From Phycisphaeraceae bacterium (lineage in GTDB: Bacteria > Planctomycetota > Phycisphaerae > Phycisphaerales > UBA1924), in contig JAHBXD010000005.1 in the NCBI GenBank assembly GCA_019636695.1, forward strand, positions 62,001-126,000: a stretch of DNA of 64,000 nt, in the 5' to 3' direction. Positions 34,737 to 59,706 of the stretch are shown here, in pieces; position 1 is the stretch's first letter, and every line of letters starts with the position of its first letter. The notes under the pieces were generated by a model that saw only the letters and a list, made by a program, of their open reading frames with translations, searched no databases and was not told the origin of the DNA. A program made the translations under genes and the position numbers.

Positions 34737-34741
34737 GGCTC

Positions 34742-34843
34742 CGGCGATCACCTACTTTCCCGCAGTGCAGTATCATCGGCAGCCTGGGCTTAACTGCTGT
34801 GTTCGGGATGGGAACAGGTGTTTCCCCAGGCTTATCATCACCG
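34742..34843 (-). rRNA. rrf: 5S ribosomal RNA
   Basis: The minus strand carries the conserved 5S core (CCCATCCCGAACA, TACTGC, GGGAAAGTAGGTGATCGCCGG). The ends were set by helix I: CGGTGAT at the 5' end pairs with ATCGCCG at the 3' end. The exact ends may differ by a few bases. It lies about 165 bp downstream of the 23S gene in the same transcription unit. Confidence 0.95.
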
Positions 34844-35008
34844 AAAATCGTCGTTCATGGTTTTCACCATGCCGACGATGAACGCGGAAATCTCCGCGGT
34901 CATCGGATAGGAAGAGAACGAGAGCCGATTATATCGTGGATGCGATATGGATCGTGTGTCGAGCGAAGCTCGACGACCAGAGCCGAAGCCGTAGTCGGCG
35001 CGGCGTCT

Positions 35009-37787
<2,779 letters not shown>

Positions 37788-58483: not shown

Positions 58484-58568
58484 AGGCCGCGGTCGGATTC
58501 GAACCGACGACGCTCTTTCGAGCAACGGATTTGCAATCCGCCCCCTTAGTCCACTCGGGCACGCGGCC
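58484..58568 (-). tRNA. tRNA-Cys (GCA) with long, class II-type variable arm
   Basis: The minus strand folds as acceptor GGCCGCG/CGCGGCC, D stem CCC/GGG, anticodon stem GCGGA/TCCGT with loop TTGCAAA (anticodon GCA), variable arm T-GCTC-GAAA-GAGC-GTC, T arm GTCGG-TTCGAAT-CCGAC, and discriminator U73. U73 plus the GCA anticodon are the main identity elements for cysteinyl-tRNA synthetase. Ordinary tRNA-Cys has a 4-5-nt variable loop; here it is a 16-nt arm with a GNRA tetraloop, as in tRNA-Ser or -Leu. No CCA is encoded. Confidence 0.93.
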
Positions 58569-58734: not shown

Positions 58735-59706
58735 ATGCCCCCCTCATTCGAATCTCTGGCAAGACAGGTCGCAACTCTGGCCGTTTGGCTCGCAAGTGCA
58801 CACGCCTATGCGCAACCGGTGTTTTCCCCTGTTCAAACGCCGCGTCCAGCACCGGTGATTCCTGGCCAGCCCGTCGTCAACGATGCGATCCCCCAGATCA
58901 AGGGGGAAGACATCCTGGTTCCCCGCAGCCGACTCATCCGCGAAGGGGCATTCGTCATCCAGAGGTCCGGTGTACTCCTCCGCGCACCGACCGGTGAGTG
59001 GATCGTGGCTTTCGCCCCCGATGACCCAGGAAACCCCCAGTCAAACCGCCTGCCGCCGATGGTACTTGTCCCGAATCGCGCGCTTTCAACTCTTGAAGCA
59101 ACAATCGGCGACCATGCCGGCGGGCTTCTGATCACCCTGACCGGCGAAGTGCTCGTCTATCACAGCCGGAATTACCTCTTGGTAAGCCTCTACAACCTCT
59201 CCAGCGCTGAACCCGCACCACAGGTCCCCCCTCCCCAACCTGACCAAGGGCATGCCCCGCCCTCCTCCACACCAAGCCCGACTGACCGCCCTCCGAGTGC
59301 GGCAGATGATCCACGGGTTCTCGAACTGATCTCAAGTCTTGAGCGCACCCGAACCCCGGGAATCCACCGGGCTGGCGAAGGTGATGCCCCTCAACCAAGA
59401 ATTCTTGGAGCCGGCTCATCCGGCCGCGACGGTGCCTTGATGGTGCGCCAACGCGGCCGACTTGTCCGCGGCGGGGCAGGGCATTGGTATTTCGCCCCAG
59501 ACACGGGCGTTCAAGATGCCCAGGGTCAAACTCGGGCCCTCCTCCCTTGCCAGACACTCATGGAGCTGGAACGCGTCGCCCAACGCCGCGGCGATGGTCT
59601 CACTATTGAACTTACGGGTCGGATTTATTCTTATCACGGCCAGGAACTTGTGCTCCCCACGATGTTCCTGATCGCCCCCCCCTCCGATGTCGCCCCCTTG
59701 CAATAA
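58735..59706 (+). CDS. exported protein with two copies of a beta domain
   Basis: The 323-residue protein has a signal peptide (1-26, ending AYA-Q) and two related domains of about 85 residues separated by a Pro/Ser-rich linker (about 155-225). The copies share the order G-A-(F/L)-(V/M)-(I/V)-(Q/R), an L-R segment, W-(I/Y)-x-F-A-P-D, a conserved proline-rich turn, and a final L-T-G-(E/R)-(V/I)-x-x-Y-H plus a hydrophobic strand (NYLLVSLYNL and ELVLPTMFLI). No catalytic residues are apparent and no family is named. It begins a run of exported proteins of unknown role leading to an FHA protease. Confidence 0.78.
   Translation: MPPSFESLARQVATLAVWLASAHAYAQPVFSPVQTPRPAPVIPGQPVVNDAIPQIKGEDILVPRSRLIREGAFVIQRSGVLLRAPTGEWIVAFAPDDPGNPQSNRLPPMVLVPNRALSTLEATIGDHAGGLLITLTGEVLVYHSRNYLLVSLYNLSSAEPAPQVPPPQPDQGHAPPSSTPSPTDRPPSAADDPRVLELISSLERTRTPGIHRAGEGDAPQPRILGAGSSGRDGALMVRQRGRLVRGGAGHWYFAPDTGVQDAQGQTRALLPCQTLMELERVAQRRGDGLTIELTGRIYSYHGQELVLPTMFLIAPPSDVAPLQ

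Follow-up and report, generated by a model that had tools for sequence, protein, structure and literature searches.

A long variable arm on the tRNA-Cys of a Phycisphaerales bacterium, switched repeatedly between long and short forms within the order

tRNA-Cys is a class I tRNA, and long variable (V) arms are carried by the tRNAs for serine, leucine, bacterial tyrosine and selenocysteine (reviewed in PMC4810241 and PMC9976931). The described long-arm exception is the selC* tRNA-Cys of some anaerobes (Mukai et al. 2017, reviewed in PMC7609411), an extra tRNA which combines a GCA (or UCA) anticodon, U73 and a long V arm with an 8/4 acceptor/T arm and a bulged A51a, and which is partly accompanied by a SelB* and a CysRS* of its own. 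Class I anticodons together with a gained large V arm are also found in tRNAs of Caenorhabditis nematodes (PMC4810241), but these are Gly, Val, Pro and Arg anticodons and are neither those of cysteine nor bacterial. A literature search, confined to main texts and mostly to papers free of subscription, returned no account of a long-armed tRNA-Cys in Phycisphaerales, and the nearest published form is the selC* tRNA-Cys. To our knowledge none of the nematode tRNAs with a large V arm is a sole isoacceptor.

The tRNA-Cys(GCA) gene described here is located at 58484..58568 on the minus strand of the window, that is, the whole 64,000-nucleotide stretch of DNA that was analysed, and is 85 nt in length with no encoded CCA. 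ARAGORN called it as tRNA-Cys(gca) and it scored 55.5 bits with the Rfam tRNA model RF00005, for which the cut-off was 29 bits. The cloverleaf contained a 7-bp acceptor stem, a 3-bp D stem, a 5-bp anticodon stem and a 5-bp T stem, and the gene is placed with tRNA-Cys by its GCA anticodon (58532..58534, minus strand) and its discriminator U73 (58484..58484, minus strand), the two elements which make up cysteine identity (PMC9976931). The V region UGCUCGAAAGAGCGUC (58509..58524, minus strand) has 16 nt arranged as U-GCUC-GAAA-GAGC-GUC, where a GAAA tetraloop caps a hairpin of four Watson-Crick pairs, or five when a U-G pair is included; with more than 10 nt and a stem-loop it is of class II type. 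Folding of the single strand recovered all of the cloverleaf stems and the V hairpin at -39.9 kcal/mol (z = -2.7).

An earlier note on this DNA had read the same anticodon, discriminator and GCTC-GAAA-GAGC hairpin at this position, and these readings were confirmed by the gene calls and the sequence and, for the hairpin, by the fold and by covariation in relatives. The same note had regarded the D arm (58543..58559, minus strand) as a class II-style trait, a view we do not share since the Rfam model, the fold and the relatives indicate that the short-armed orthologues have the same layout with an equal 3-bp stem and a long D loop, and the D arm is therefore no class II signature. The upstream promoter it had proposed was not recovered, as scanning around the gene for sigma-70 promoters and terminators found neither element. 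By reasoning we also rejected the idea that the V region holds a bacterial intron, because the extra 11-12 nt are far too small and fold as a GNAA-capped hairpin. Elsewhere in the window 23S and 5S rRNA genes were located at 34739-37778, and no 16S rRNA match was present anywhere in the window, so that the 16S rRNA gene appears to be unlinked.

In its anticodon, U73, 7/5 acceptor branch, 3-bp D stem and the locus it shares with short-armed orthologues, the gene resembles an ordinary class I bacterial tRNA-Cys, from which it differs in that the ordinary V region has 4-5 nt whereas that of the Phycisphaerales form has 12-18 nt and forms a hairpin. Comparison with the class II tRNAs of the same genome (G000) did not sustain the view that the arm is serine-like. 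The four tRNA-Ser of the genome have V stems of 6-8 bp, one unpaired 3' base and G73, whereas the tRNA-Cys has four Watson-Crick pairs plus a possible U-G (4-5 bp), 2-3 unpaired 3' bases and U73, and so does not have the long V stem, single unpaired 3' base and G73 which mark the tRNA-Ser of this genome. Its V-arm layout is closest to that of tyrosine, the tRNA-Tyr of the genome having a 3-bp V stem and three unpaired 3' bases. Bacterial tRNA-Tyr, which is class II, shares with it a short V stem, a small loop, about three unpaired 3' bases and a similar D arm, and differs in its own anticodon GUA, in A73 and in its acceptor and anticodon stems.

The genome assembly is a draft of 3.11 Mb in 9 contigs, estimated at 94% completeness, and a gap could conceivably hide a second tRNA-Cys. 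When the anticodons of the 43 tRNAs above the Rfam cut-off were inspected individually, the long-armed tRNA-Cys was the only one with GCA, and as far as the draft shows it must therefore serve all cysteine codons. The class II set was otherwise ordinary, with four tRNA-Ser, five tRNA-Leu and one tRNA-Tyr. Relatives, too, usually had a single GCA tRNA per genome, and a plasmid search for a similar tRNA found none. A normal tRNA-Cys elsewhere in the genome together with no conservation of the gene in relatives, which the earlier note had named as a refutation of its reading, was not what we found; no second GCA tRNA was present among the 43, and the form is conserved.

Within Phycisphaerales the long arm occurs widely, though with a patchy distribution. 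A tRNA-Cys orthologue was present in nearly all of 60 relatives in two forms, a short form of 74 nt with a V region of 5 nt (typically UAUUC) and a long form of 81-88 nt in which the V region has 12-18 nt, and both forms occur within one family. Comparison of tRNA-Cys across the class Phycisphaerae agreed with a lineage-specific form, as all 33 of the long forms in a sample of 397 genomes were from Phycisphaerales (three families) and none of the other orders sampled had the long arm. Among 392 genomes drawn from the whole phylum there were ten long forms in Phycisphaerales and, outside it, one differing form with a 24-nt arm. In a scan of genome collections the genuine tRNAs among the matches listed were almost all titled Phycisphaerales, Phycisphaeraceae, Phycisphaerae or Planctomycetota; the few other cellular long-armed cases among these listed matches were from Anaerobiospirillum (L125), Salipiger (L178, in a tRNA cluster) and Bacteriovorax (L175), with two further cases (L127, L167) looking like selC*. 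Many pattern matches had no tRNA call and were discarded as chance. The Anaerobiospirillum metagenome contig carried two adjoining long-armed tRNA-Cys genes with encoded CCA (2523-2771 of L125).

Long-armed tRNA-Cys genes are also carried by large phages. Of 63 viral pattern matches (loci L192-L254), 55 were called as tRNA-Cys of at least 80 nt (41 distinct) and nearly all of these were in loci with several tRNAs; a long-armed tRNA of Pseudomonas phage D6 (OQ363659) is annotated as tRNA-Cys. The phage genes share GCA, U73 and the long V arm with the Phycisphaerales form but lie mostly in tRNA clusters and often have an encoded CCA. Some are closest to phage tRNA-Tyr, which suggests a separate origin, and the phage forms likely arose independently of that in Phycisphaerales.

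The long-armed gene is orthologous to the short-armed tRNA-Cys of relatives and lies at the same locus. In an all-against-all comparison, homologues of the divergent neighbouring gene at 58736..59706 (plus strand), which served as a synteny marker, adjoined short-armed tRNA-Cys divergently at two loci (L070, L072) and also many long-armed ones. One genus (g24) contained five long-armed genomes and one short-armed genome (G311). The flanks in four of the five aligned with those of G311 at 74-86% identity, and the short tRNA-Cys of G311 differed from the aligned long forms by the absence of exactly 11 bp of hairpin; in this genus a small indel is enough for the switch. A tree of RpoC from 60 genomes, with the root set by assumption on one family of Phycisphaerales, contained at least ten changes between long and short, also forced by strongly supported branches. 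With equal costs there were ten changes from a short root, and when few gains were forced some twelve losses accompanied a single gain. A two-state model gave an lnL of -30.7 with both gain and loss, which fell to -51.9 when loss was disallowed and to -40.7 when gain was, and these much worse values indicate that both are needed. In Phycisphaerales the arm has therefore changed repeatedly between its long and short states, once via a clean 11-bp indel.

In 20 distinct 83-nt relatives the three V-arm stem pairs were paired in 98% of cells, and double compensatory changes were observed at all three (GC/AU/UA, GC/AU/CG/UA and CG/GC/AU). The whole-structure values of this set were matched by none of 500 shuffles, and sliding likewise destroyed the signal. 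Over 49 distinct V regions the mean V stem was 3.76 bp compared with 2.76 ± 0.12 bp when shuffled, and GNAA loops capped 30 of the 49 arms. Some forms had a minimal arm of 2 bp with GCAA and others had a likely bulge (UGUGCGAAAGCCAAYC). The V arm, variable in length, is probably under weak to moderate constraint.

To judge the meaning of the codon we used columns which are Cys in short-armed genomes, 12 in RpoC and three in CysRS. TGC was found at all 15 of these columns in the genome, and in long-armed genomes Cys occupied 315 of 327 conserved cells and Ser only one. The 15 columns include motifs of both proteins which match what we take to be known zinc-binding sites. The CysRS gene of the genome encodes catalytic, DALR and C-terminal anticodon-binding domains, and the product resembles solved CysRS structures including that of the E. 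coli enzyme, entry 1u0b, presumably a tRNA-bound complex. We know of no use that CysRS makes of the length of the variable loop. One SerRS was found above the cut-off. The earlier note had left two outcomes, a lineage-specific tRNA-Cys accepted by CysRS or serine at cysteine codons. The former is supported, with acceptance predicted from a sole tRNA-Cys, its covarying conservation and the presence of a CysRS gene, whereas the latter, like the serine-like arm and the D-arm signature, was not upheld, as conserved Cys positions are TGC and remain Cys in long-armed genomes. Apparently the codon still means cysteine.

From this sequence evidence we consider it very probable that the gene encodes the ordinary tRNA-Cys of the genome and its only one, which CysRS charges with cysteine and which reads UGC and UGU, and that an additional hairpin has been inserted into the variable loop of this tRNA. 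CysRS would recognize it by U73 and GCA, and with identity resting on these elements the outward-pointing arm should be no hindrance to charging. The short stem with 2-3 unpaired 3' bases, a layout of tRNA-Tyr and not of tRNA-Ser, would together with U73 keep SerRS, LeuRS and TyrRS away, and for both charging and decoding the arm may be nearly neutral.

The compensatory changes in the arm imply that its pairing is selected, and "neutral" may therefore be too weak a word. We regard it as quite unlikely that the arm has a selected function in this order, for example in tuning a dual Cys/Ser identity, with mistranslation at Cys codons under regulation, or in altering the attachment of integrating elements at tRNA-Cys; if true, this would explain both the covariation and the repeated gain and loss. 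Very unlikely, too, is a dual identity in which, owing to the arm, part of the tRNA is charged by SerRS and low levels of serine are placed at Cys codons. Serine identity lies mainly in the variable arm and not in the anticodon, and G73 was no serine determinant in unmodified transcripts in vitro (PMC9976931). The pairs G1-C72 and G2-C71, which are conserved in bacterial tRNA-Ser (PMC9976931), are common to the tRNA-Cys and the tRNA-Ser of the genome, and the V stem of the tRNA-Cys is longer than that of the tRNA-Tyr, so that some affinity for SerRS is conceivable. The geometry of the V arm is however unlike that of all four tRNA-Ser, the discriminator is U73 and not G73, and wholesale reading as serine is excluded because the conserved Cys of RpoC and CysRS stay TGC. 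Himeno and colleagues reportedly found in 1990 that small V-stem insertions in E. coli tRNA-Tyr can create serine acceptance, and by analogy low-level mischarging of the long-armed tRNA-Cys by SerRS is possible. Descent from a tRNA-Tyr (or tRNA-Ser) gene with an altered anticodon, or acquisition of the arm by gene conversion, appears highly improbable. The layouts of the D arm and of the V arm (T-GGC-NNNN-GCC-TTC) resemble those of tRNA-Tyr from the same order, and some of the phage genes look most like tRNA-Tyr, but the acceptor stem, anticodon stem and locus are those of short-armed tRNA-Cys, and mean edit distances between the Cys V arm and the Tyr V arm of the same genome (5.05 compared with 5.08 when permuted, p = 0.50) gave no signal of gene conversion from the own-genome tRNA-Tyr. 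An ancient single conversion as the source of the arm is conceivable. We give almost no credence to a selC*-type special tRNA-Cys, or a relative of tRNA-Sec, with its own elongation factor. GCA, U73 and a long V arm are likewise combined in the selC* tRNA-Cys (PMC7609411), but the acceptor/T arm here is 7/5 and not 8/4, there is no bulged A51a, and the gene is the sole tRNA-Cys of its genome whereas selC* is an extra species beside a normal tRNA-Cys. A search for SelB in the genome found none above cut-off. tRNA-Sec itself, with UCA, G73 and a 13-bp acceptor domain, was rejected as the gene has GCA, U73 and 12 bp.

A mechanism of switching that is compatible with an ordinary sole tRNA-Cys is that integrases attaching at the 3' half of the gene swap the arm, which they could do because the stretch from the anticodon loop to U73 gets replaced; we consider this unlikely. 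On contig CALMPG010000151.1 a Phage_integrase gene abuts an intact tRNA-Cys (L161) and a duplicated 3' half with the V arm lies farther along (L139). An extra 3' half was also found in three other genomes (L113/L096, L143/L136, L132/L148), and the 3' half of a long-armed tRNA-Cys of Phycisphaerales type is present on three viral contigs (L196, L200, L237), where it is probably the attachment site of a phage or element. However, the intact and half copies had an identical V arm in all four genomes, so no swap was caught, and the 11-bp indel in genus g24 is explained without an integrase. The duplicated 3' half spans the anticodon loop to U73, V arm included, and is attachment-site-like.

The shift from class I to class II in this essential tRNA is real and lineage-specific, with the amino acid most likely unchanged, and a wider recoding claim is not supported. 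Specialists in tRNA evolution should be surprised that an essential tRNA, the single tRNA-Cys of a bacterial order, has crossed the class II boundary ten times or more without any sign of changed meaning, and annotation rules that rely on arm length can mislabel such tRNAs. The order offers a natural series for studying the origin of the tRNA classes, the way in which SerRS tells class II tRNAs apart, and whether class I tRNAs are free to acquire a variable arm.
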